From assembly GCF_038502225.1 (NCBI RefSeq), contig NC_091311.1:28204230-28268229 (forward strand): DNA of 64,000 bases, in the 5' to 3' direction. The notes beneath the pieces were generated by a model. That model was given only the letters and a program-made list of their open reading frames with translations, did no database searches and was not told where the DNA came from. Numbering within the stretch: the first letter of the stretch is position 1; every line of letters begins with the position of its first letter. Source of the stretch: Cherax quadricarinatus. Taxonomy: Eukaryota; Arthropoda; Malacostraca; Decapoda; Parastacidae. The translations under genes and the position numbers were made by a program. Below are positions 101-64,000 of the stretch, in pieces.

Positions 101-3100
101 ATGCCACCTAGACGAGTCAGACGCCTGGTGTCGGCATATACTTTGCATAACCTACCTAAATTGTCCCTACAGCGTTGTTGGCAAATTGCTCGTTCCATTG
201 GCATTCCCTATAAACGCACTCTCACAGCTGCGCAACTGCGTTCACTTATTGCTGACATACTTATTGAAGAAGAGATGGCACATCAAACTCCTCCCTCTAC
301 GGGAGCTAGGGAAAAAACTCTTATGTTCTCGCATGAGGAAGATGATACACCTACGGAGCAAAATGGTCAGTATGGTGCAGCTGGGTTGTCTCGAGATGAA
401 TCAGCGTCGTTGGCACTTGAGCTGGCAAAAATCACGCTGGAGCAAACTAGGGAACAGAGAGCATTCGCAAGGGAAGAATTTGATAGGGAAAGAGAAAGGA
501 GGCAGTTTTCACATTCTGTAAACGATTTCAGTTTACAAAAAGCAGTACAGCTTGTTCCCCGCTTCAATGAGGCCGAACCAGAGCAATTTTTCGAAAGCTT
601 CGAAAATCAGGCTCGAGCCTTGAGGTGGCCGGAACAGCACTGGGCAGCGTTGGTTCATACAGCATTATTGGGTAAGGCACAGGAATTTACGTCGGTATTA
701 ACTGACGCTGAATTCTCTGATTATCAAGTAGTGAAGACCACAGTGTTGGGAGCATATACATGTATCCCAGCTAAATATCGTAAGACCTTCAAATTGAACA
801 GGCGGCAGCTTGGTCAATCCCTGGTGGACTTTGTGAGACAGCAAACCAAAACTTTTACCAGCTGGTATAAAGCGAGTGGTGTCTCTAACTTTGAGGAGCT
901 GGTGCAGCTTATTCTGATTGATAACCTGCTGGAGTCTGTGGGACCAGAGGTTCGTGTCTTTCTGCAGGATCGTGACTTAACCACTGCATTGGAGGCGGCC
1001 AGGTTGGCTGATACCTTCGAAACGAACCGCTCCTTGTCCGAGCGGTCCCGTCTCTCTTTTCAACAGTCTGGCGTGAGCAGAGATCGACAACATTGGAGAA
1101 TGAAGTGCCAGCCGGAGGGAGAGCGTCTACGTCATCCAACCAAGTCACCTGGTGAGCCACGCTTCTCAACATATGGTCCCCCTGCGGAGAGGCAAACTAC
1201 TTATGGAGCATCTCGACAACAATATCCAGAGAGGCACCAGCCAGAACGACACCACTTGCAACGTCATCAGGGAGTAAAGGGCAAGCCTGTCGTCTGCTTC
1301 AGGTGCAATAAAGTAGGTCACATCAGTTCCAACTGCCCCCAAAAACCTCAACCCATTGGGAAAATCTCTAATATCCCTAGTAACATGTCCCCTAGAGAAG
1401 TAGAAAAAGGTATGGCCCCTTATTATTGCGAAAGTCTTATTTCCCTTCAGGAAAACTCAGAACCAACTAAAGTAAATACCTTTAGAGATACTGGAGCCTA
1501 TTGCTCACTTGTCAGAGAAGGAATATTACCCCTTTCAGATAATACTTCCTTGAATTCCTCAGTTTTATTGGAAGCCTATGGAGGAGCTATATATTCAGTT
1601 CCTTTGCATAAAATTTATGTACAGTGCAAATATTACACTGGGTACTTGACTGTAGGTATCTCAAAAGGATTTCCCATGAAAAATGCCATGTTATTACTGG
1701 GTAATAACATTACTACTGTTACTTCGTGTCCTGAACCTATAATGATTAATGCTTCTCCAGTGTTGGCCATAACTCGGGCAACTTCCCAAGGGTTGTCTGG
1801 AGAGAATGTTGACCTATCCTTGGACGACTCCGATCTCGGAATAGCCACATTGTTTTACGAGGAAAACTGGCCAGAGCCTCGTAGATCAAGTGAACAGACC
1901 CCGATCAAGCCTTCCTATTCCCAGGTTGCAGGATTGCCAGATGTCTCTGTTTCCATGCCCGAGGGACTGTCCTTCCGGGAGGAACAACGAAAGGACCCTT
2001 CTTTAAAATTCGCTTTTCAGGCAGCCATGGGTAAATCCTCTTGGGGTCATCCAGTCAAGTATGAAGTTAAAAATGATTATTTGGTCTGCACTGAGACTGG
2101 TAAGGAGATAGAGGGCCGGCAATTATACGACAGGTTAGTGGTTCCAACCAAGTATAGACCTCAGATATTAAATATAGCTCATAATACGTCATCAGGAGGT
2201 CACTTAGGAATTACAAAAACCTTGTATAGAATCACAAAAGAATTTTATTGGCCAAAATTAAAGAAAAATGTGAAGAATCATATTAGGTGTTGCCGAGAAT
2301 GTCAGCAAGTTGGAAAACCTGGACATTCCATTAAACCTGCACCTCTCCAACCCATACCTGCTGATGGAGAACCTTTTGCAGATTTAATTATAGATTGTGT
2401 AGGTCCACTACCTAAGTCAAAGTCTGGAAATCAGTATTTATTTACAATTATGGATAAAGTAACCAGATATCCTGAAGCGATCCCAATGCGTAGTATCAAT
2501 ACTAAAGCTATTCTCAAAGCTTTAACAAAATTCATTTCTTGTTTTGGCATTCCTAAAACTATACAAAGTGATCAAGGTACTAACTTCACTGCCAAAGCAT
2601 TTAGGGAAGTATTAACTAGGTTAGGGATAATTCACAACTTATCCACTGCCTATCATCCTCAGTCCCAAGGCGCCTTGGAAAGATTCCACCAGACATTAAA
2701 AACAATGATGAGAAGTTTTTGCATGCACTTTCCTACAGACTGGGATGAATCTCTACCTTTGTTGCTGTTCTCAGTACGAGAGACGGTGCAAGAGTCTACA
2801 GGGTATAGTCCGTTTGAGCTGATCTTTGGGCACAATGTACGAGGTCCTCTTCGGGTGCTCAAAGAAGGATGGATGGGAGAAGACGTAAGCTCAGCACTCT
2901 ACAACCCGTCTTCAAGGTTGCAGGTGGCACGTGAGTTGGCCACGGCTAACCTAAAGATAGCTCAAAGTAAGATGAAACAGAGGTATGACAAAAGTGCACA
3001 ATTCCGCTCCTTCCATCCAGGAGACAAGGTGTTGGTGCAGGAACCTATACCTGGCCACACCTTGAAAGCTAGATATACGGGACCTATGCAGATTGTAAGT

Positions 3101-3232
3101 AGATTATCTGATTTAAATTATGTGGTAGCTCCCATTGATAAGACCTCAAAAACAAAAACTTACCACATTAATCAAATCAAGGCCTTTCATACACCAGATA
3201 AAGTCCCAGTAATGACTATCCTCTACCTCTGA
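101..3232 (+). CDS. Gag-protease-integrase polyprotein, Gmr1-like Ty3/gypsy retrotransposon
   Basis: A single intact 1043-codon frame encodes particle protein and integration enzymes. A charged Gag region fills about residues 1-390. A CCHC zinc knuckle (CFRCNKVGHISSNC, C399-C412) should bind RNA. The retropepsin-like motif DTGAYCSLV begins at D463. The integrase has an HHCC finger (H694, H701, C731, C734) and a D765-D824-E860 triad with the D,D35E spacing of retroviral-type integrases. There is no RT here: RT and RNase H are in the next ORF, so integrase precedes RT. That is copia-like order, although the sequences are gypsy-like, and it is the hallmark of the Gmr1 group. The frame ends with TGA at 3230-3232 and overlaps the open RT frame by about 14 nt. 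The first ATG is at 101. No internal stop or frameshift is visible, so the copy looks young. Confidence 0.9.
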   Translation: MPPRRVRRLVSAYTLHNLPKLSLQRCWQIARSIGIPYKRTLTAAQLRSLIADILIEEEMAHQTPPSTGAREKTLMFSHEEDDTPTEQNGQYGAAGLSRDESASLALELAKITLEQTREQRAFAREEFDRERERRQFSHSVNDFSLQKAVQLVPRFNEAEPEQFFESFENQARALRWPEQHWAALVHTALLGKAQEFTSVLTDAEFSDYQVVKTTVLGAYTCIPAKYRKTFKLNRRQLGQSLVDFVRQQTKTFTSWYKASGVSNFEELVQLILIDNLLESVGPEVRVFLQDRDLTTALEAARLADTFETNRSLSERSRLSFQQSGVSRDRQHWRMKCQPEGERLRHPTKSPGEPRFSTYGPPAERQTTYGASRQQYPERHQPERHHLQRHQGVKGKPVVCFRCNKVGHISSNCPQKPQPIGKISNIPSNMSPREVEKGMAPYYCESLISLQENSEPTKVNTFRDTGAYCSLVREGILPLSDNTSLNSSVLLEAYGGAIYSVPLHKIYVQCKYYTGYLTVGISKGFPMKNAMLLLGNNITTVTSCPEPIMINASPVLAITRATSQGLSGENVDLSLDDSDLGIATLFYEENWPEPRRSSEQTPIKPSYSQVAGLPDVSVSMPEGLSFREEQRKDPSLKFAFQAAMGKSSWGHPVKYEVKNDYLVCTETGKEIEGRQLYDRLVVPTKYRPQILNIAHNTSSGGHLGITKTLYRITKEFYWPKLKKNVKNHIRCCRECQQVGKPGHSIKPAPLQPIPADGEPFADLIIDCVGPLPKSKSGNQYLFTIMDKVTRYPEAIPMRSINTKAILKALTKFISCFGIPKTIQSDQGTNFTAKAFREVLTRLGIIHNLSTAYHPQSQGALERFHQTLKTMMRSFCMHFPTDWDESLPLLLFSVRETVQESTGYSPFELIFGHNVRGPLRVLKEGWMGEDVSSALYNPSSRLQVARELATANLKIAQSKMKQRYDKSAQFRSFHPGDKVLVQEPIPGHTLKARYTGPMQIVSRLSDLNYVVAPIDKTSKTKTYHINQIKAFHTPDKVPVMTILYL

Positions 3233-4697
3233 GGACGAATCTGACTCTTTGCACTCTATCTCTGAAATTAATACTAAACTTTCAAATTCTGTCCTCCTCA
3301 AGGATCCTAGCCCGTTAATGGATGGATTATCTGAAATACAAGCAACCAATTTAACTGAGCTTCTACAGTCATATCCTAATATTTTTTCGGATGTGCCGAA
3401 AAAATGTACGTTAGGTTACCATGATGTAGATGTGGGAAAATCTAAACCAATTAAACTCTCCCCCTACAGAGCTAATCCTGAAAAGCAAAGGCTACTTCAG
3501 CAGGAAGTAGACTTCTTGTTAGAACATGGTTTAGTGGAGGAGTCATCTAGTCCATGGGCTTCACCGTGCATCCTAGTAAAAAAGGCTGATGGAGGGTTTC
3601 GTATGTGCACAGACTACCGTAAAGTGAACGAGGTCACAATCACAGATGCTTACCCTCTTCCTCGTCTGGATGACGTAATTGACTTTGTGGGTAAGGCTAC
3701 TTTTGTGTCCAAATTAGATCTCCTTAAAGGTTACTATCAGGTACCTTTGACAGATAAGGCGAAGGAAATCTCTGCCTTCGTGATTCCAGGAGGTCATTAT
3801 CAGTATACAGTTACCCCCTTCGGAATGAAAAATTCCCCCTCTTCATTCCAGAAACTCATCCATCAGGCTATTAAAGGACTTGAAGGCACGGCAGCATACC
3901 TAGATGATATTGTTGTGGTGTCTGATACTTGGGATCAACACCTACTTAGACTTAAAGCTCTGTTTGAGACCTTTAAGAATTCCCAATTAACAGTTAATTT
4001 ATCTAAATCTTCCTTTGGCCAGGCCACTATCACTTTTCTAGGCCATGAAGTAGGTAGTGGTAATGTTGCACCTAAACTTGCTAAAGTTCTTTCGATTAAA
4101 GATTATCCAGTTCCTCATGATAGGAAATCTCTTCAACGTTTCCTAGGCATGATAGGATTTTACAGAAGATTCTGTAAGAATTTCTCAGATATTGTAGCCC
4201 CTCTTACCTCTCTTACCAGTCATAAAGTTCCCTTTAATTGGACGTCAGATTGTAACACTGCTTTTAATAAAGCAAAAAGATTATTGTGCTCTGCACCCAT
4301 TCTCCTGTCTCCAGACTTCTCCAAACCTTTTTCATTACAGGTTGATGCTTGTGAGTCTGGGGTTGGGGCGGTACTATTACAAATCGGGAACAAGGAGCTG
4401 CAGCCAATCGCATACTTTTCAGCTAAGTTCCAGCCACATCAGAGAGCTTACTCTACCATTGAAAAAGAAGCCCTCGCGCTGGTAATGGCTTTGAAGCATT
4501 TCGATGTTTATGTGGGCCAGACATCGCAGGTGGTCACAGTCTACAGTGATCACAACCCGTTAGTCTATCTCCAAGCCATGAAGAATCACAACACAAGGCT
4601 TATGCGTTGGACGCTCAGGCTGCAGCCCTACAACCTAAAAATAAATTATATTGCCGGCAAAGAAAATGTGTTGGCAGACTCTTTGTCAAGAGTCTAG
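3216..4697 (+). CDS. Reverse transcriptase-RNase H polyprotein, Gmr1-like Ty3/gypsy retrotransposon
   Basis: This frame copies element RNA into DNA. It opens after a stop at 3213-3215 and its first ATG is at 3318, 86 nt past the upstream stop. The sequence before that ATG reads like genuine acidic, Ser-rich coding sequence, so expression by +1 (or -2) frameshifting in the overlap 3216-3229, or by reinitiation, is plausible. RT motifs include SKLDLLKGYYQVPL (catalytic Asp codon 3717-3719), TPFGMKNSPSSFQ, and YLDDIVV with YLDD at 3897-3908. RNase H follows: Asp codon at 4344, the IEKEALA glutamates at 4461-4469, and VYSDHNPL with Asp codon at 4548. The frame ends right after RNase H; no integrase or chromodomain follows, because integrase lies in the upstream ORF. 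Both ORFs are intact. Confidence 0.9.
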   Translation, partial: LSSTSEDESDSLHSISEINTKLSNSVLLKDPSPLMDGLSEIQATNLTELLQSYPNIFSDVPKKCTLGYHDVDVGKSKPIKLSPYRANPEKQRLLQQEVDFLLEHGLVEESSSPWASPCILVKKADGGFRMCTDYRKVNEVTITDAYPLPRLDDVIDFVGKATFVSKLDLLKGYYQVPLTDKAKEISAFVIPGGHYQYTVTPFGMKNSPSSFQKLIHQAIKGLEGTAAYLDDIVVVSDTWDQHLLRLKALFETFKNSQLTVNLSKSSFGQATITFLGHEVGSGNVAPKLAKVLSIKDYPVPHDRKSLQRFLGMIGFYRRFCKNFSDIVAPLTSLTSHKVPFNWTSDCNTAFNKAKRLLCSAPILLSPDFSKPFSLQVDACESGVGAVLLQIGNKELQPIAYFSAKFQPHQRAYSTIEKEALALVMALKHFDVYVGQTSQVVTVYSDHNPLVYLQAMKNHNTRLMRWTLRLQPYNLKINYIAGKENVLADSLSRV

Positions 4698-10684: not shown

Positions 10685-10774
10685 AATGTTTTAATATTTC
10701 GAAAAAAAAAATGCAATTTTAGTTGAGTTTTGCATGATATTAAATATTCCACATGGTCTGTTAGGTGACGTACT

Positions 10775-12728
10775 TGTTGTGACACACTGCGCTGTGTTAC
10801 ATGTTGCGACACACTGCGCTGTGTTACATGTTGCGACACACTGCGCTGTGTTACATGTTGCGACACACGGCACTGTGTTACATGTTGCGACACACGGCAC
10901 TGTGTTACATGTTGCGACACTGCGCTGTGTTACATGTTGCGACACAATGCGCTGTGTTACATGTTGCGATACACGGCACTGTGTTACAAGTTGCGACACA
11001 CTGCGCTGTGTTACATGTTGCGACACACTGCGCTGTGTTACATGTTGCAACACACGGCACTGTGTTACATGTTGCGACACACTGCGCTGTGTTACATGTT
11101 GCGACACACGGTACTGTGTTACATGTTGTGACACACTGCGCTGTGTTACATGTTGCGACACACTGCGCTGTGTTACATGTTGCGACACACTGCGCTGTGT
11201 TACATGTTGCGACACACTGCGCTGTGTTACATGTTGCGACACACGGCACTGTGTTACATGTTGCGACACACTGCGCTGTGTTACATGTTGCGACACACTG
11301 CACTGTGTTACATGTTGTGACACATGGCACTGTGTTACATGTTGCGACACACTGCACTGTGTTACATGGTGCGACACACTGCGCTGTGTTATGACATGTT
11401 GCGATACACTGCGCTGTGTTACATGTGACACACTGCTCTGTGTTGCATGTTGCGACACACTGCGCTGTGTTACATGTTGCGACACTGTGCTGTGTTACAT
11501 GTTGCAACACCCTGCGCTGTGTTACATGTTGCAACACACTGTGCTGTGGTACATGTTGCGACACACTGCGCTGTGTTACATGTTGCGACACACTGCGCTG
11601 TGTTACATGTTGCAACACACTGTGCTGTGTTACATGTTGTGACACACTGCGCTGTGTTACGACATGTTGCGATACACTGCGCTGTGTTACATGTGACACA
11701 CTGCGCTGTGTTGCATGTTGCGACACACTGCGCTGTGTTACATGTTGCGACACACTGCGCTGTGTTACATGTTGCAACACACTGCACTGTGTTACATGTT
11801 GCAACACACTGCGCTGTGTTACATGTTGCGACACACTGCGCTGTGTTATGACATGTTGCGATACACTGCGCTGTGTTACATGTGACACACTGCGCTGTGT
11901 TGCATGTTGCGACACACTGTGCTGTGTTACATGTTGCGACACACTGCGCTGTGTTACATGTTGTGACACACTGTGCTGTGTTACATGTTGCAACACACTG
12001 CGCTGTGTTACATGTTGCGACGCACTGCGCTGTTACGACATGTTGCGACACACTGCGCTGTGTTGCATGTTGCGACACACTGCGCTGTGTTACATGTTGC
12101 GACACACTGCGCTGTGTTACATGTTGTGACACACTGCGCTGTGTTACATGTTGCAACACACTGCGCTGTGTTACATGTTGCGACGCACTGCGCTGTTACG
12201 ACATGTTGCGACACACTGCGCTGTGTTGCATGTTGCGACACACTGTGCTGTGTTACATGTTGCGACACACTGTGCTGTGTTACATGTGACACACTGCGCT
12301 GTGTTACATGTTGCAACACACTGCGCTGTGTTACATGTTGCGACACACTGCGCTGTGTTACATGTTGCAACACTGCGCTGTGTTACATGTTGCGACACAC
12401 TGCGCTGTGTTACATGTTGCGACACACGGCGCTGTGTTACATGTTGCAACACACTGCGCTGTGGTACAAGTTGCAACACAATGCACTGTGTTACATGTTG
12501 CAACACACTGTGCTGTGTTACATGTTGCAACACACTGTGCTGTGTTACATGTTGCGACACACTGCGCTGTGTTACATGTTGCGACACACTGTGCTGTGTT
12601 ACATGTTGTGACACACTGCGCTGTGGTACATGTTGCAACACACTGTGCTTTGTTACAACATGTTGTGACACACTGCACTGTGTTACATGTTGCGACACAC
12701 TGTGCTGTGTTACATGTTGCGACACACT
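10775..12728 (+). repeat. 27-bp satellite array, main block
   Basis: About 72 head-to-tail copies of a 27-bp unit that begins TGTTGCGACACACTGCGCTG and ends TGTTACA. The period is nine codons and five of the six frames lack stops, which explains the Cys/Thr/His/Gln-rich open frames on both strands; none looks like a gene. Units differ mostly at two CpGs (GCGAC to GTGAC or GCAAC; TGCGCTG to TGTGCTG or TGCACTG). A short stem ACACA/TGTGT with CTGCGC between lies inside each unit. Longer blocks repeat at 189, 269 and 163 bp, which is higher-order structure. The array continues at 17195, 18270 and 18906. Confidence 0.97.
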
Positions 12729-12844
12729 GGTCCGAACCCTGGACTGGTTTCAAACGGTTTCGTTGTGCACTACCTAGCAGGTTATTAATAGAATATTCAA
12801 GAGGTTGCTAGTAGAATTGCAGTAAATCAACCATTCAAATCATT

Positions 12845-17194: not shown

Positions 17195-17270
17195 ACACTG
17201 TGCTGTGTTACATGTTGCGACACACTGCGCTGTGGTACATGTTGCGACACAATGTGCTGTGGTACATGTT
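17195..17270 (+). repeat. 27-bp satellite, second block
   Basis: Nearly three units of the 27-bp satellite resume directly after the LINE A tail. It shows that LINE A landed inside a pre-existing array. Confidence 0.95.
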
Positions 17271-18269
17271 TCCCCGACAGTGAAGTTCTGCTGTCCCTCT
17301 AGATTTTCAGGTAGGCCTCATCATGTATCATGTCTCGCCTGCGTTCAGCAGTGAGGTTTGGGAAGAAACCCTCAAGCATTCCTTCCCAGCCTCATTGGTG
17401 TTTTCCATCTTCTGTTATGCACGCGCTAATTAATTCTGCATGTACATTTCTAGGTCGGCGCAATTTCACCTGCCTTGGAGTGCTGGGACCAGTGGTGCAG
17501 CAAGCCAATTAATTCCAGCCTCAAGATACTGAAGTGACTGAAAATGTCATCGCTGAACCTGCTTGGCCGGTTCCCTCGGTGCTCCAGGTTCTCGTGATGG
17601 CTAACGAATGCGATTTTCATTAGCGATGTTGTGGTCGCTTGTCCCAAGTATTCCTCGGTCATGATCAGTCCGGGAATCTGAAACGTTGGTATCAACTGTT
17701 ACAAGGCTGTTCCGCTTGTTTGCTGGCCGTCGATGTAATTTCCTCGTGATGCCGCTGTTCTGCATGGTTGGGAGCCATATCTCGGTCGTTGAAGTCGGCT
17801 TGTTCATTCGTTGGCGGCTTTGCTAATAATTTGATGTCCGCCCGCTGAAGACTGGTTGGATGATAACGCCATTGAAAGGCTCAGTTACGGGTGAATCTGC
17901 AGGTAGACGCGAACAGCTGTCGGTGCGTCAAGTGTCGGATGTGGATGAGACGCAGTTACTGTTGGTGTTGCCTGCTTGTGTCAGAATATGGCTGCAAGGC
18001 AAGGACCTCGAACTGACCTGGTTGGCAGGCCTGCTATGGGTTCTGACCAGGCTGCCAATGTGTTCTAGATCCAATCGACCGACTTTTCCTGTTGTTTATC
18101 ACTTTGCATTTGTGCTGCTATTACGCCATGGTGACACTGTCGAGGCTTTTGCTGAAAGTCTAATATGTTACATCTGCATTCTTTCGTGTTTCATAAGTGC
18201 ATTGAATAGTGTCATGCAATGATCCCGTTAGGTTGAAGACAGGGAAGCGATTTAATTACTAAACCCGTG
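17271..18269 (-). mobile_element. antisense, strongly diverged LINE A relic inside the satellite
   Basis: Several stretches match the reverse complement of LINE A in order. CTCTAGATTTTCAGG and ATGTCTCGCCTGCGTTC (17300-17345) resemble 35895-35935. CGCAATTTCACCTGCCTTGGA (17460) resembles the antisense of the KAGEIADLE segment. GAGGCTTTTGCTGAAAGTCT (18143-18162) and TTACATCTGCATTC (18168) match the antisense DFAKAFD region near 36872-36915. No coding capacity is left. Confidence 0.6.
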
Positions 18270-18470
18270 TTTTACATGTTGCGACACACTGCGCTGTGTT
18301 ACATGTTGCGACACACTGTGCTGTGTTACATGTGACACACTGCGCTGTGGAACATGTTGCAACACACTGTGCTGTGTTACAACATGTAACACACTGCGTT
18401 GTGCTACGTCAAGTTGCGACACACTGCGCTGTGTTACATGTTGCGACACACTGCGCTGTGGTACATGTTA
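18270..18470 (+). repeat. 27-bp satellite, third block
   Basis: About seven variant units, including shortened ones, lie between the antisense LINE A relic and the LINE D fragment. Confidence 0.95.
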
Positions 18471-18905
18471 AGAACATAAGAACATAAGAACGAAGGAACA
18501 CTGCAGAAGGCCTACTGGCCCATGCGAGGCAGGTCCAAGTCTCCTACCGGCTTAAGCCAATGCACCCAACCTAGTCAGGTCAGGTCACATTGACTTAAGG
18601 GAGGAACACGGCAACCTACCTGTTAGCACAAGCTATCAGGTCTAACTCACACCCACCCACATCTACTCATGTATTTATCCAACCTATTTTTAAAGCTACA
18701 CAACGTTCTGGCCTCTATAACGGTACTTGGGAGTTTGTTCCACTCATCCACAACTCTATTACCAAACCAGTACTTTCCTATATCCTTCCTGAATCTGAAT
18801 TTTTCCAACTTAAAACCATTGCTGCGAGTCCTGTCTAGGCTAGATATTTTCAGCACACTATTTACATCCCCTTTATTTATTCCTGTCTTTTATTTATTCC
18901 TGTCT
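18471..18905 (-). mobile_element. LINE D, 5'-truncated 3' end on the minus strand
   Basis: The left end is an AAGAACATAAGAACATAAG tandem, that is (TTCTTATG)n on the element strand, a CR1-type 3' tail. On the minus strand, 18647-18856 encodes an RT C-terminal tail (NRVVDEWNKLPSTVIEA). It closely matches the copy at 27228-27825. The right end has a 17-bp duplication (TTTATTTATTCCTGTCT) against the satellite. Confidence 0.82.
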
Positions 18906-19206
18906 GTTGCAACACACTGTGCTGTGTTACAACATGTTGCCACACACTGCGCTGTGTTACATGTTGCAACACACTGTGCTGTGTTACATGTTGCGACACA
19001 CTATGCTGTGTTACATGTTGCGACACACTGCACTGTGTTACATGTTGCGACACACTGTGCTGTGTTACATGTGACACACTGCGCTGTGCTACATGTGACA
19101 CACTGCGCTGTGTTACGGCATGTTGCGACACACTGCGCTGTGTTACGACATGTTGCGACACACTGTGCTGTGTTACGACATGTTGCGACACACTGCGCTC
19201 TGTTAT
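18906..19206 (+). repeat. 27-bp satellite, fourth block
   Basis: About eleven variant units, several with the TTACGACATG spacer variant also seen in the main block. The array ends here. Confidence 0.95.
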
Positions 19207-41353: not shown

Positions 41354-41891
41354 ACTGTACACTATACACCGTGTAAGTCAGACCCATATTGGAGTATGCA
41401 ACACCAGTATTGAACCCACACCTGGTCAAACAAGTCAAGAAATTAGAGAAAGTGAATCGGTTTGCAAAAAGATTAGTCCCACAGCTAAGGGGTATGTACT
41501 ACGAGGAGAGGTTAAAAGAACACGACCTGACGACAATTGGGGACTGGAAGGGAAGGGGAAGACATGATAAAGACGTATAAAATACTAAGAGGAACTGACA
41601 AGGTATACAGAGACAGGATGTTCTAGAGATGGGACACAGCAACAAGGAAGTTAAGATGGAAGTTAAGACTCAGACGAGTCACACGAACGTTAAGAAGTAT
41701 TTCTTCAGTCACAGTGTTATCAGGAAGTGGAATAGTCTGGAAAGTGAGGTAGTGGAGGCAGGATCCATACATAAGTTTAAGAAGAGATATGATAAAGCTC
41801 ATGGAGCAGGGAGAGAGAGGACCTAGTAGCGGCCAGTGAAGAGGCGGGGCCAGGAGCTATGAATCGACCCCTGAAACCACAATTAGGTGAG

Positions 41892-42301: not shown

Positions 42302-45300
42302 CAGGGGGAGGGAGGAAGGGAGGGAAGGAAGGAGGGAGGAAGGGAGGGAAGGAAGGAGGGAGGAAGGGAGGGTAGGGAGGAAGGGAGGGTAGAAAGGAGG
42401 GATGGAGGGAAGGAAGGATGGGGAAGAGAGAAGGAAGGGAGGGAGGGAGGGAGGGAGGAGGGAAGGAAGGAGGGAGGAGGAAGGAAGGGAAGGAAGGAAG
42501 GGAAGGGAAGGAAGGAGGAAGGAGGGAAGGGAAGGGAAGGGAAGGGAAGGGAAGGAAGGGAAGGGGAAGGAGGAGGAAGGGAAGGAGGGAAGGAAGGAGG
42601 AAGGAGGGAGGAGGGAGGAAGGGAGGGGAGGAAGGGAGGAGGGAAGGGAAGGAAGGAACGGAGGGAGGAAGGGGAGGAAGGAAGGTGGAAGGGAGGGAAG
42701 GAAGGAGGGAGGAAGGGGGGAGGGAAGGGAGGAGGGAGGAAAGGGAGGAAGGGAAGGAGGGAGGAAGGGAGGGAAGGAGGAGGGAGGGAAGGAAGGAGGA
42801 AAAGGAGGGAGGAAGGGAGGGAAGGAAGGAGGAGGAAGGAAGGAAGGAAGGAAGGAGGAGGAAGGGAAGGAAGGAGGAGGGAAGGAGGAGGAAGGAAGGA
42901 GGGAGGAGGGAAGGAAGGAGGGGAGGAAGGAAGGGAAGGAAGGAGGAAGGGAAGGAAGGGAGGAAGGAAGGAGGGAAGAAGGAGGAAGGAAGGAGGAAGG
43001 AAGGAGGGGAGGGAAGGAAGGGAGAGCAGGAAGGAGGGAGGGGAAGGGAAGGGAAGGGAAGGAGGAAGGGAGGGAAGGGAAGGAGGGAGGGAGGAAGGAG
43101 GGAAGGAAGGGAGGAAGGGAAGGAAGGAAGGAGGGAAGGAGGGAGGAAGGAAGGAAGGAGGGGGAGGAAGGGAAGGGAGGAAGGAAGGAGGAGGAAGGGA
43201 GGGAAGGGAAGGAGGGAAGGAAGGAGGGAAGGAAGGAGGAGGAAGGAGGGAAGGGAAGGAAGGAGGAGGGAGGAAGGGAGGAAGGAAGGAGGGAAGGAAG
43301 GAGGGAGGAGGGAGGAAGGAAGGGGGAGGGAGGGGAAACGAGGGAAAGGGGAAGGAGGAGGAAGGGAGAGGAAGGAGGAAGGGAGGGAAGGAAGGGAAGG
43401 AAGGAAGGAAGGAGGAGGAAGGGAGGAAGGGAAGGAAGGAAGGAAGGGAGGAAGGGGAAGAGGAAGGAGGAAGGGAAGGGAAGGAGGTAAGGAAGTATGG
43501 AGGGAGGGAAGGAAGGAGGTAAGGAAGTATGGAGGGAGGGAAGGAAGGAGGGAGGTAAGGGAGGGAAGGAAGGAAGGAGGAAGGGAGGGAAGGAAGGAAG
43601 GAGGGAAGGAAGGAAGGAGGAAGGAAGGAGGAGGAAGAAGGAAGGAAGAAGGAAGGGAGGAAGGAAGGAAAGGAGGAAGGGAGGGAAGGAAGGGAGGGAA
43701 GGAGGAAGGAGGGAAGGAAGGAGGAGGAGGAAGGGAGGGGAAGGAAGGGAGGAAGGAAAGAGGAAGGGAGGGAATGAAGGAGGGAGGGAAGGGAAGGGAA
43801 GAAAGGAGAGAGCAAGGAGGGAAGGAAGGAAGGAGGAAGGAGGAAGGAAGGAAGGAAGGAGGGAGTAAGGGAGGGAAGGAAGGAGGAAGGGAGGGAAGGA
43901 AGGAAGGAGGGAAGGAAGGAAGGAGGGAGGAAGAGAGGGAAGAAGGAGAGAAGAAGGGAGGGAAGGAAGGAAAGAGGAAGGGAGGGAAGGAAGGAGGGAG
44001 GAAGGGAGGGAAGGAAGGAGAGAGGAAGGGAGGGAAGGAAGGGAGGGAAGGAAGGAGGAAGGGAGGGAAGGAAGGAGGGAGGAAGGGAGGGAAGAAAGGA
44101 GAGAGCAAGGGAGGGAAGGAAGGAAGGAGGAAGGGAGGGAAGGAAGGAGAGAGGAAGGGAGGGAAGGAAGGAAGGGAAGGAAGGAAGGAGGAAGGGAGGG
44201 AAGGAAGGAGGGAGGAAGGGAGGGAAGGAAGGAGGGAGGAAGGGAGGGAAGGGAAGAGGGAGGAAGGGAGGGAAGGAAGGAGGGAGGAAGGAGGGAAGGA
44301 AGAAGGGAGGAAGAGAGAGAAGGAGGGAGGAAGGAGGAGGAAGGGAGGGAAGGAAGGAGGTAGGAAGGGAGGGAAGAAAGGAGGAAGGGAGGGAAGGAAG
44401 GAGGGAGGAAGGGAGAGAAGGAAGGAGGGAGGGAGGAAGGGAGGAAAGGAGGGAGAAAGGGAGGGAAGGAAGCAGGGAGGAAGGGAGGGAAGGAAGGAAG
44501 GAGGAAGGGAGGGAAGGAAGGAGGAAGGGAGGGAAGGAAGGAGGGAGGAAGGGAGGGAAGGAAGGAGGGAGGGAGGAAGGGAGGGAAGGAAGGAGGAAGG
44601 GAGGGAAGGAAGGAGGGAGGAAAGGAGTGAAGGAAGGAGGGAGGAAGGGAGAGAAAGAAGGAGGAAGGGAGGGAGGTAGAGAAGGTAGGCAGGCAGGGAG
44701 GTAGGGAGAGAAGGAAGGAGGGAGGAAGGGAGAGAAAGAAGGAGGAAGGGAGGGAAGGAAGGAGGGAGGAAGGGAGGAAGGAAGGAGGGAGGGAAGGGGA
44801 AGGAAGGAGGGAGGAAGGGAGGGAAGGAAGGAGGGAGGAAGGGAGGGAAGGAAGGAGGGAGGAAGGGAGGGAAAGAAGGAGGAAGGGAGGGAAGGAAGGA
44901 GGGAGGAAGGGAGGGAAGGAAGGAAGGGAGGGAAGGAAGGAGGGAGGAAGGGAGGGAAGGGAGGAGGGAGAAAGGGAGGGAAGGAAGGGAGGGAAGGAAG
45001 GAAGGAGGAAGGGAGGGAAGGAAGGAAGGGATGGAAGGAAGGATGGAGGTAGGGAGGGAAGGATGGAGGAAGGGAGGGAAGGAAGGAGGGAGGAAGGGAG
45101 GGAAGGAAGGAGGGAGGAAGGGAGGGAAGGAAGGAGGGAGGTAGGAAGGGAGGGAAGGGAGGAAGGGAGGGAAGGAAAGAGGGAGGAAGGGAGGGAAGGA
45201 AGTAGGGAGGAAGGGAGGGAAGGAAGGAAGGGAGGGAAGGAAGGAAGGAGGGAGGAAGGGAGAGAAGGTAGGAAGGGAGGGAAGGAAGGAAGGAGGGAGG

Positions 45301-45586
45301 AAGGGAGGGAAGGAGGGAGGAAGGGAGGGAAGGAAGGAAGGGAGGGAGGGAAGGAGGGAGGAAGGGAGGGAAGGAAGCAAGGGAGGGAAGGAAGCAAGGG
45401 AGGGAAGGAAGCAAGGGAGGGAAGGAAGCAAGGGAGGGAAGGAAGCAAGGGAGGGAAGGAAGCAAGGGAGGGAAGGAAGCAAGGGAGGGAAGGAAGGAAG
45501 GGAGGGAAGGAAGGAGGGAGGAAGGGAGGGAAGGAAGGAGGGAGGAAGGGAGGGAAGGAAGGAGGGGTATGGAAGGATGGAGAGAG
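42302..45586 (+). repeat. 3.3-kb polypurine tract, (GGAA/GGGA)n
   Basis: Almost only G and A on this strand, in GGAAGG, GGGAGG and GAAGGAGG words, with few pyrimidine interruptions (for example GGTAGG, AGCAAGG). A 17-bp GGAAGGAAGCAAGGGAG periodicity appears at 45370-45490. The longest frames in the window (over 1000 codons, Ser/Pro/Leu/Phe or Gly/Arg/Glu/Lys only) come from here and are not genes. Such mirror purine tracts can form triplex DNA. Confidence 0.97.
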
Positions 45587-45869
45587 TAAGTACAGTCATG
45601 GGTTCCAGAAACATTAACTCTCATCATCTGATCTATTGAAGAGAAATCCGTTATTACGAAGAGTAAAAATTAAAATTAAATTATTTGAAGGTGAAAATCA
45701 ATCAATATAAGAAATAGAAAAATGTAAAAAGAAAAAAGACACATTATAAAAAATCATAATAGTAGGGAAGAACTGTGTCTGAAGTGTATCTGGCCAAGAC
45801 TTTGCTCTAACACAGTAATTATCACACTTAGTAGCCATACATAAATCTGATTAACACACATTTTCAACA

Positions 45870-46134
45870 GTTGCGTTTTATTGTCGAAACATTTCGCCTA
45901 CACAGTAGGCTTCTAAAGTCATATACACAGACAGCAGGTGTAGTAGCGGAATGAAGATGATGTAATCAGTCCTCCAACCTTTTTGCAATAGTATCTGAGG
46001 TGGTCAGTCCCTCAGCCTGGAGAATTCAGCTCCATTGACTGAAGAAGTCTACTGTGTAGGCGAAACGTTTCAACAATAAAGATACCCAACTGTTACACAC
46101 GTGTCTTAATAATCAACTTGTCAGTATTTCATAC
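45870..46134 (+). mobile_element. second fold-back element with hammerhead-like fold
   Basis: Flanked by the 11-bp direct repeat CATTTTCAACA (45859-45869 and 46135-46145). The left part (45870-45985) is in minus orientation and includes TTTCGCCTACACAGTAGGC. The right part is in plus orientation with CTACTGTGTAGGCGAAACG. After the fold, ACAATAAAGATACCCA and GTGTCTTA match the tail of the element at 27941 (ACAATAAAGATAACCA, GTGTCTTA). Non-coding, and it shares the fold-back design of that element. Confidence 0.75.
46035..46073 (+). ncRNA. hammerhead ribozyme-like fold H2
   Basis: Stem I is TTGA (46035-46038) with TCAA (46070-46073). The core CTGAAGA (46039-46045) fits CUGANGA. One extra A precedes stem II, GTCTAC/GTAGGC (46047-46052 with 46056-46061; one T-G pair) around TGT. 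Then GAA (46062-46064), self-complementary ACGT (46065-46068) and T at 46069 as cleavage nucleotide. Stem I differs from H1 yet still pairs. A reverse-strand, core-damaged relative lies at 45880-45925. Confidence 0.68.
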
Positions 46135-46243
46135 CATTTTCAACATAGATAACTGTATTATAGGATGGCTGGCTGAGTGGTCAAGGTGACGCGTGTGTTG
46201 TGTTGTCTCTGAGGCGATACAACGTTCGTCGGGTCGAGTCCTG

Positions 46244-46251
<8 letters not shown>

Positions 46252-57389: not shown

Positions 57390-59045
57390 TGTGTGTGTAC
57401 TCACCTAATTGTACTCACCTAATTGTGGTTGCAGGGGTTGAGACTCAGCTCTTGGCCCCGCCTCTTCACTGATCGCTACTAGGTCATCTCTCTCTCTGCT
57501 TCCTGAGCTGTATCATACCTCTTCTTAAAACTATGTATGGTTCCTGCCTGCACTACTTCACTTGCTAGGCTATTCCACTTCCTGACGACTCTATGACTGA
57601 AGAAATACTTCCTAACGTCCCTGTGACTCGTCTGAGTCTTCAGCTTCCAGTTGTGACCCCTTGTCCCTGTGTCCCCTCTCTGGAACATCCTATCTCTGTC
57701 CACCTTGTCTATTCCCCGCAGTATCTTGTATGTCGTTATCATGTCTCCCCTGACCCTTCTGTCCTCCAGTGTCGTCAGTCCGATTTCCCTCAACCTTTCC
57801 TCGTACGACATTCCCCTGAGCTCTGGGACTAGCCTTGTTGCAAACCTTTGTACTTTCTCTAACTTCTTGACGTGCTTGACCAGGTGTGGGTTCCAGACTG
57901 GTGCTGCATACTCCAGTATGGGCCTAACATACACAGTGTACAGTGTCTTGAACGATTCCTTATTAAGGTATCGGAACGCTATTCTCAGGTTTGCCAGGCG
58001 CCCGTATGCTGCAGCAGTTATTTGGTTGATGTGTGCCTCCGGTGATGTGCTCGGTGTTATGGTCACCCCAAGGTCTTTCTCCCTGAGTGAGGTCTGTAGT
58101 CTTTGTCCACCTAGCCTATACTCTGTCTGCGGTCTTCTTTGCCTCTCCCCAATCTTCATGACTTTGCATTTGGCTGGATTGAATTCGAGAAGCCAGTTAC
58201 TGGACCACATGTCCAGCCTGTCCAGGTCTCTTTGCAGTCCTGCCTCATCCTCATCCGATTTAATTCTTCTCATCAACTTCACATCATCTGCGAACAGGGA
58301 CACTTCAGAGTCTATTCCTTCCATCATGTCGTTCACATATATCAAAAATAGCACTGGTCCTAGAACTGACCCCTGTAGGACCCCGCTCGTCACAGGCGCC
58401 CACTGTGATACCTCTTCACGTACCATGACTCGTTGCTGCCTCCCTGTCAGGTATTCCCTGATCCATTGCAGTGCCCTCCCTGTTACATGCGCCTGACCCT
58501 CCAGCTTCTGCACTAATCTCTTGTGGGGAACTGTGTCAAAGGCCTTCCTGCAGTCTAGGAAAAGGCAATCTACCCACCCCTCTCTCTCGTGTCTTACTTC
58601 TGTTACCTTGTCATAAAACTCCAGGAGGTTTGTGATACAAGATTTGCCTTCCATGAACCCATGCTGGTTTTCATTTATAATCTTGTTCCTTTCCAGGTGT
58701 TCGACCACTCTCCTCCTGATAATCTTCTCCATGACTTTGCACACAATACATGTCAGAGACACAGGTCTGTAGTTTAGTGCCTCGTTTCTGTTTCCTTTCT
58801 TAAATATGGGGACTACATTAGCTGTCTTCCATTTCTCAGGTAGTTGCCCAGTTTCAAGGGATGTGTTGAAGATTGTGGTTAGAGGCACGCACAGCATCTC
58901 TGCTCCTTCTCTAAGGACCCATGGGGAGATGTTGTCTGGTCCCATCGTCTTTGAGGTGTCAAGGTCACTTAAGAGCTTCTTCACCTCCTCCTCGGTTGTT
59001 CGTATGCCATCCAACACTTGTTGGTATATTCCCTCTTGATGTTCC
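57390..59045 (-). mobile_element. LINE B, 5'-truncated, with an uninterrupted RT frame
   Basis: The 3' end (57395-57425) is the tandem TACTCACCTAATTG, that is (CAATTAGGTGAGTA)n on the element strand. The 5' end is cut just upstream of RT, so the endonuclease is missing. The coding part is described separately. Homologous copies lie at 39640-41896, 41158-41353 and 63030-63280. Confidence 0.9.
57479..59044 (-). CDS. LINE B reverse transcriptase, open but 5'-truncated
   Basis: More than 512 codons are open without stop. The frame extends above the TTG at 59017 to the element truncation, so no native start is present. RT blocks: SDLDTSKTMGPDNISPWVL, NYRPVSLTCIVCKVMEKII, NQHGFMEGKSCITNLLEFYD, CLFLDCRKAFDTVPHKRL (catalytic Asp), VLQGSVLGPVLFLIYVNDM (VPQG reads VLQG), SLFADDVKLMRRI (FADD) and LGVTITPSTSPEAHI. 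A C-terminal domain follows with YVRPILEYAAPVWNPHLVKH and YFFSHRVVRKWNSLASEV. The absence of stops suggests the most recent LINE insertion here. It lacks endonuclease and promoter, so it is not an active element. Affinity: CR1/jockey group. Confidence 0.88.
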   Translation of the reverse strand, partial: EHQEGIYQQVLDGIRTTEEEVKKLLSDLDTSKTMGPDNISPWVLREGAEMLCVPLTTIFNTSLETGQLPEKWKTANVVPIFKKGNRNEALNYRPVSLTCIVCKVMEKIIRRRVVEHLERNKIINENQHGFMEGKSCITNLLEFYDKVTEVRHEREGWVDCLFLDCRKAFDTVPHKRLVQKLEGQAHVTGRALQWIREYLTGRQQRVMVREEVSQWAPVTSGVLQGSVLGPVLFLIYVNDMMEGIDSEVSLFADDVKLMRRIKSDEDEAGLQRDLDRLDMWSSNWLLEFNPAKCKVMKIGERQRRPQTEYRLGGQRLQTSLREKDLGVTITPSTSPEAHINQITAAAYGRLANLRIAFRYLNKESFKTLYTVYVRPILEYAAPVWNPHLVKHVKKLEKVQRFATRLVPELRGMSYEERLREIGLTTLEDRRVRGDMITTYKILRGIDKVDRDRMFQRGDTGTRGHNWKLKTQTSHRDVRKYFFSHRVVRKWNSLASEVVQAGTIHSFKKRYDTAQEAEREMT

Positions 59046-63030: not shown

Positions 63031-63285
63031 CAAAAAAATACTCAGTGGGATAGATAAGACGGACAGAGACATGATGTTCCAGAGATGGGGCACAGTAACA
63101 AGGGGTCACAATTAGAAGTTGAAGACTCAGATGAGTCAAAGGGATTTTATGAAGTATTTCTTCAGCCATAGAACTGTTAGGAAGTGGAATGTCTGGCAAG
63201 TGATGTAGTGGACGCAGGAGCCCTACATAGTTTTAAGACGAGGTATAGTAAAGCTCATGGAGCAGGGAGACAGAGGATCCAGATC
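63031..63285 (+). mobile_element. LINE B C-terminal fragment
   Basis: GGGATAGATAAGACGGACAG, ATGATGTTCCAGAGATGGGG and GAAGTATTTCTTCAGCCATA match the 3' coding part of LINE B (equivalent to 41600-41820). A continuous frame is lost through indels, and the usual 3' tail is absent. Confidence 0.8.
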
Positions 63286-63324
63286 TTAACTATGCAAGAC
63301 AAGCCACAAGAGGGTGGAAATCTT

Positions 63325-63368
63325 TAGCTCAAGTACTTTCGCACTTCTCAGTGCGTCATCAGGAGCTA
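63325..63368 (-). ncRNA. hammerhead ribozyme-like fold H3 (all core positions intact)
   Basis: On the minus strand: TAGCTC (63368-63363) pairs with GAGCTA (63330-63325), six of six. The core CTGATGA is exact (63362-63356). One extra C (63355) precedes stem II, GCACT/AGTGC (63354-63350 with 63345-63341) around GAGA. Then GAA (63340-63338), self-complementary AGTACT (63337-63332) in place of stem III, and T (complement of 63331) as cleavage nucleotide. Of the three folds it is the most complete. Confidence 0.72.
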
Positions 63369-63382
63369 TGCAATGTTGCAAG

Positions 63383-63500
63383 GTTGCAACTGGACTGGAA
63401 TTGAAACCGAGGCTATACATTTGCGAATCCTGCGGTCTGCCACTGTGCTATGGTGATTACAAGAGAAGAAAGTCAACCTCAGTGAGTGATGTTTGGAAGC
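63383..63500 (+). other. possible transposase cysteine-rich tail fragment
   Basis: The frame from 63314 reads GLELKPRLYICESCGLPLCY then DVWKHLGLQC. The CESCxxPLC arrangement is reminiscent of the cysteine-rich C-terminus of piggyBac-type transposases. No catalytic region accompanies it. The rest of the window to 64000 shows nothing I recognise. Confidence 0.3.
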
Positions 63501-64000
63501 ACCTCGGCCTCCAATGTCTTCCCCATCGCCAACAGACTTATGATAGATTTAACTCCTGTCCTTTCAAAGCCAAATTCACTGTTCATTTATTTCCCAGAAG
63601 ATTCTGGATTTCAAGGGACAAGAGCTAGATCTATCATTAGGGCTGATAGTGATACTGAGGAAGACAGTTTTAGAACCTCGCAGCTGTCGTTGCTAAACGT
63701 TGCGTGGCGTATTTACGGTATATTTGATGTCTCCTCAATGCTTTCCTTTCTCCTGTATTTCTTCAGCCCTGTGTGAACATCAAGTCTCGTGTATGTCAGA
63801 GCCTGTGTACTGTATACCAACCTCTGCGTGCGTCAAACCCCTTGTATAAATCCGGACTCATGTGCTCCAGTGCATTAGCACATGATATCCCTGCATAAGT
63901 TTGGGGAGTCTTGAGGGTGGAGGCTCCACTTCTTGTGACTGGTGGAGGAGACAGGATTTACAGCCACACGGGTCGATGGTCTCCTCTATCTAACACCGTG

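Follow-up and report, generated by a model that had tools for sequence, protein, structure and literature searches.

A minimal hammerhead-like motif with a palindromic, loop-less stem III in a putative Penelope-like repeat family of the crayfish Cherax quadricarinatus

Minimal type I hammerheads that lack helix III have been described as dispersed copies or in the pseudo-LTRs of Penelope elements (PMC6155905, PMC7761336), and such variants cleave RNA as dimers according to the title of Lunse, Weinberg & Breaker 2017 (cited in PMC11620745 and PMC8490949). A 2020 review calls their role "still a mystery" (PMC7761336). In a study on a Penelope element (PMC11167929), hammerhead-dead mutants are reported to insert RNA in vitro as before, and the authors reportedly found no RNA ends mapping to the cut site of the element.

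Here, we analyzed a 44-nt hammerhead-like motif on the minus strand of a 64,000-nt stretch of the Cherax quadricarinatus genome (hereafter, the window). Like the Penelope minimal hammerheads (Cervera & De la Pena 2014; Lunse, Weinberg & Breaker 2017; as presented in reviews), it has a type I layout with a missing or palindromic stem III, and it shares with them a proposed action as a dimer, dispersed copies and a seemingly Penelope-like host element. It departs from them by an extra base, a C that can pair with G12, and by second copies that stand head-to-head, whereas the review describes tandem motifs. The Poseidon hammerhead of Anolis (PMC11167929) is also made of stems I and II only and belongs to a Penelope element, but the ORF of that element starts at stem II, whereas the reverse transcriptase (RT) ORFs of the crayfish regions end 1.4-3.0 kb before the motif. 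The satellite hammerheads of axolotl and newt, as presented in PMC7229834, resemble the crayfish motif through their weak helix III, their palindromic sequence and their better performance as dimers, but they have a single pair closed by a palindromic tetraloop, loop 1-2 contacts and tandem repeats of 330-350 bases. The crayfish motif is best filed as an ordinary member of the Penelope-type minimal hammerheads that have already been described. Our preferred reading, to which we give a probability of roughly 0.88, is that it is the minimal type I hammerhead motif of a Penelope-like family of Cherax quadricarinatus and that the copy of this family in the window is short and 5'-truncated and lies beside the end of a LINE.

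Layout, predicted folds and chance controls

Read on the minus strand, the motif runs TAGCTC CTGATGA C GCACT GAGA AGTGC GAA AGTACT T GAGCTA (Table 1). All the parts that an earlier note on this DNA had listed, namely the core, the GAA, the six-pair stem I, the five-pair stem II and AGTACT, are found there exactly, and so is the extra nucleotide that it had placed between A9 and stem II; since the plus strand has no CTGA, the assignment to the minus strand is correct. The window contains one copy of this motif, in which a core of CUGANGA and GAA is joined to stems I and II, although G12 is able to pair with the extra C. The T that follows AGTACT provides a base other than G at the cut, and an A15.1-U16.1 pair can be made, but only between two copies.

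Table 1. Positions of the hammerhead-like motifs and of the neighbouring features in the window
Feature	Position	Strand	Evidence
Minimal type I hammerhead-like motif, whole	63325..63368	-	layout, descriptor scans, copy alignment
Stem I, 5' strand TAGCTC	63363..63368	-	sequence layout, fold
Core CTGATGA (C3-A9)	63356..63362	-	sequence layout, copy conservation
Extra C at the A9/stem II junction; pairing with G12 (63340) possible	63355	-	layout, Rfam alignment, fold, copies
Stem II GCACT (63354-63350), loop GAGA (63349-63346), AGTGC (63345-63341)	63341..63354	-	layout, fold
Core GAA (G12-A14)	63338..63340	-	layout, copy conservation
AGTACT, palindromic loop-less stem III	63332..63337	-	layout, dimer fold
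U17 (T); predicted cut on its 3' side, 63331/63330	63331	-	inferred from hammerhead layout
Stem I, 3' strand GAGCTA	63325..63330	-	sequence layout, fold
Body of the dispersed repeat that holds the motif, 5'-truncated copy, 103 bases	63290..63392	-	common to 47 other matches listed, nearly all covering query 79-181
3' end of a LINE-type RT gene, on the strand opposite to the motif and 47 bases from it	63035..63277	+	similarity to other window copies
Second minimal hammerhead-like motif	46035..46073	+	descriptor scans
Diverged copy of the repeat that holds the second motif, inverted and head-to-head with it	45850..45921	-	score 45, 0/2000 shuffles

The 44-mer folds at -16.2 kcal/mol, compared to -7.09 +/- 2.12 kcal/mol for shuffled sequences, none of which was as good (0/200). 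AGTACT proved to be self-complementary and to make no hairpin alone, as previously claimed, and two strands folded with the core held open are predicted to form a double hammerhead in which stem III has six pairs (-30.6 kcal/mol versus 2 x -12.2 kcal/mol). The folding of monomer and dimer that had been proposed as a check thus gave a stable monomer and a double hammerhead as the predicted dimer, and 106 of the 111 palindrome cells across copies are paired, pointing to a stem III that is competent for dimers in the predicted fold. When the folds were left free, the extra C paired with G12 in both predicted monomer and dimer, where this pair is favoured by 2.6 and 4.0 kcal/mol, respectively. Hammerhead activity has been reported to drop when bases are inserted at other places in the core or next to it (PMC3088659).

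No Rfam model matched the window at its gathering score, and no Rfam hammerhead was found in 63100-63600 at E values up to 10. The scan with hammerhead covariance models, also proposed in the earlier note, gave as its best match, from a scan of 66 bases, RF02275 (Hammerhead_HH9), which aligns in the expected fold with the C as an insertion but scores 12.0 bits when its gathering score is 52 (E 1.1), no better than nearby chance matches. Since three snoRNA models match the same 66 bases at similar E values (0.32, 1.6 and 5.3), the match to RF02275 alone is no evidence. The Rfam models used miss the hammerhead form without stem III.

The bare core pattern is common, with six rows in the window where 3.19 are expected, a number that 18 of 100 shuffles reach. 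A descriptor scan that also requires the stems finds two places in the window, while 40 random 64-kb sequences generated from the dinucleotide frequencies of the window gave one loose match and no strict one. The same two places are returned by a descriptor combining a palindromic stem III, a stem II of at least five pairs and at most two core mismatches, for which 30 random sequences gave a single match and none with an exact core. This descriptor was designed after the first motif was seen, so that the second motif is the fairer test; the chance of one such additional match is a few per cent. In viral controls, which contain many near-duplicates, none of 73 core matches had both stems with four pairs, a related pattern gave 34 matches without a single one that had more than one stem I pair, and neither of these looser sets contained anything hammerhead-like. 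Searches of a phage collection with the motif DNA and with one RT piece gave no match, nor did searches of viral contigs with the first and with the second motif, a motif search of a genome-contig collection, protein searches with two stop-free frames across the motif (one as residues 1-60), and a search for six words of the motif sequence in an open subset of the printed literature. The motif at 63325-63368 is beyond chance.

Copies in the genome and their host element

The motif belongs to a dispersed repeat, with at least 48 matches in the 3.95-Gb assembly, a lower bound that comes from scoring the best 40 of 1287 candidates. Among the matches listed, all but the window's own start at query position 73 or later and nearly all at 79, which corresponds to 63392, showing that the repeat begins there in the window copy and that a tRNA-like stretch at 63450-63395 lies outside. 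Other copies share further upstream sequence of variable length, which would fit 5'-truncated copies of a retroelement.

We then aligned 38 copies from 30 loci, including the window copy, and counted changes (letters only) relative to the base found in most of the 37 others; these copies were selected by similarity to the window copy, which may flatter conservation, and they have a shared history. The core was changed in 4 of 407 cells (11 positions, 37 copies), compared to 153 of 2166 in the flank (132 of 1961 in gapless columns), and 11 flank columns picked at random never reached this conservation in 20000 draws, so that the core stands above its surroundings among these similarity-chosen copies. 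Over the same 37 copies, changes affected 2 of 148 cells in loop II, 9 of 222 in stem III, 20 of 444 in stem I and 33 of 370 in stem II, and 16 copies kept the core, stems and palindrome fully intact. Paired cells with both bases changed amounted to none in stem I and one in stem II, the copies being too alike to speak for or against covariation. The 44 bases of the window copy are identical to the family consensus. The extra base is a C in 31 of the 37 copies and changed in six; the idea that it bars activity in the window copy in particular is weakened, the C being the family norm. As a separate observation, G12 is kept in 36 of the 37 copies while C (18 copies), T (17) and A (two) all occur at the adjoining 63341; this CpG thus decays almost only on one side, which could reflect shared descent or selection on G12.

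Second copies were found in 8 of 30 loci of ~3.1 kb; each of them runs on the opposite strand, and the 5' ends of the two copies face each other (head-to-head). Second copies of at least 69 bases were present in two of eight longer regions, again on the opposite strand and head-to-head, and by eye the table of genome matches shows eight head-to-head pairs among the matches listed. In one of the longer regions (L138), an inverted copy directly precedes the RT ORF and a forward copy follows the ORFs; another (L141) has a similar inverted partner. No direct tandem pair was seen in the 30 loci or among the second copies of the longer regions, and the proposal that the element makes tandem RNAs is not supported.

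An RT domain (RVT_1) was detected upstream of the motif and on the same strand in three of the eight longer regions and in none of the five others: in L138 at 1745-2377 with 33.3 bits, above the curated cut-off of 29.6, and below this cut-off in L140 (2214-2690, 25.7 bits) and L141 (3603-3938, 28.9 bits). The three RTs are 68-82% alike, and blastp against 120 LINE proteins found no match for them (best E 0.024). By eye, further ORF pieces look like a Penelope RT end and a GIY-YIG domain, the GIY-YIG-like ORF lying ~0.7-0.9 kb before the motif. In the scanned pieces, Pfam and NCBIfam gave no model naming Penelope or GIY-YIG; among solved structures, there was a weak match for the RT (best E 0.0031) and nothing useful for the GIY-YIG-like piece. 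All ORFs seen in the fetched regions are broken. We infer from this inspection by eye that the RT is probably of Penelope type. Penelope elements average 2.3% in Astacidea according to PMC10454600. Of the interpretation given in the earlier note, the link to Penelope elements gains from the dispersed repeat, the conserved core and the presence of an RT upstream in the same element and strand in three of eight regions (one above cut-off).

A second motif and other features of the window

The second motif (46035-46073) is composed of TTGA, CTGAAGA, an extra A, GTCTAC/TGT/GTAGGC, GAA, ACGT, T and TCAA. It thus has a palindromic stem III and one extra base, as the first motif does, and its stems differ from those of the first motif yet are paired. 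It matches no Rfam hammerhead, and its monomer fold is no better than shuffles (z -0.67). In the inverted diverged copy, 113 bases away, the core is broken (CTTTAGA) while stem II is still paired. Homology between the 3' flanks of the two motifs was considered and was not significant (321/2000 shuffles). Downstream of the second motif, on the plus strand and at a distance of ~100 bases, a tRNA-like stretch at 46170-46244 has a perfect box A and a box B with one mismatch, and is possibly a SINE head.

The LINE end beside the first motif is 82% identical over 244 bases to 57484-57727 and 80% identical over 245 bases to 41579-41821. An ORF at 57482-59017 on the minus strand is an RVT_1 and is 91% identical over 87% to a Cherax quadricarinatus protein.

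Several other features were observed in the window. An imperfect long hairpin at 63500-63690 folds at -75.4 kcal/mol (shuffles -47.56 +/- 4.02, z -6.9) and corresponds to an inverted repeat of ~150 bases that is possibly a foldback element. A 27-base satellite forms a main array of 72.7 copies with shorter arrays nearby (10771-12729, 17195-17270, 18268-18469 and 18905-19205), and a GGGA-rich purine array extends over 3.3 kb (42306-45566). LTR-retrotransposon-like ORFs occupy 101-4694 on the plus strand, the first with a zinc knuckle and integrase and the second with RT and RNase H, an order that places the integrase upstream of the RT.

Proposed action of the motif and alternative explanations

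If the motif is the minimal hammerhead of a Penelope-like family, stems I and II would form within one RNA molecule, where AGTACT makes no hairpin. When two copies meet, their AGTACT stretches would come together as a six-base stem III that completes two cores, each expected to cut after the U at 63331. That the motif RNA would be transcribed, form dimers and be cleaved is what we infer from its layout and predicted folds.

An unlikely alternative is that the same element retains the motif for a non-cleavage role, such as that of an RNA fold recognised by the element's own protein. Such a role would agree with the in vitro insertion of cleavage-dead Penelope mutants (PMC11167929) and with the C-G12 pair favoured in the predicted fold, but the catalytic core comprises the least changed positions, less changed than the stems, and a plain structure would not require CTGANGA and GAA. 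By comparison, it is rather probable that the window copy itself is a dead remnant, unable to act even though its family did: it is 5'-truncated to a 103-base body, has no shown promoter and is alone in the window. Its match to the family consensus nevertheless means that its ribozyme part has not decayed.

Other origins of the motif appear far less probable. A chance resemblance of an inverted repeat, which the frequency of the bare core pattern could suggest, carries next to no weight considering the random-sequence descriptor scans and the conservation of the core among copies. That the motif is part of a tRNA-headed SINE is very improbable: a box A word and one close to box B do occur at 63450-63395, on the minus strand directly upstream of the repeat copy, but this tRNA-like stretch (query 1-72) is outside the repeat family and is reached by none of the 47 other genome matches listed, and neither ARAGORN nor Rfam at E values up to 10 found a tRNA there. 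For the sampled family, a tRNA-headed SINE is thus refuted. We have similarly little belief in a metazoan retrozyme with its unit in tandem repeats. Retrozyme-like repeats have been reported from crustaceans (PMC7229834), but the 30 loci lack direct tandem pairs and, in the review PMC7761336, the hammerheads of invertebrate retrozymes are said to usually have a stable helix III.

Within the preferred reading of a Penelope-like minimal hammerhead, the palindromic stem III might conceivably be a handle that pairs two element RNAs, with an RT that switches between RNAs held as a double hammerhead and head-to-head pairs as its genomic trace; we regard this as a long shot. If it were true, a ribozyme acting only as a dimer and the inverted insertions would belong together as two aspects of a single step in the mobility of Penelope elements. 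Since the crayfish family brings together many alike copies, a best-kept core, a fixed extra base and head-to-head pairs, it is one system in which to test whether the motif cleaves, whether the core is under selection and how inverted insertions arise.
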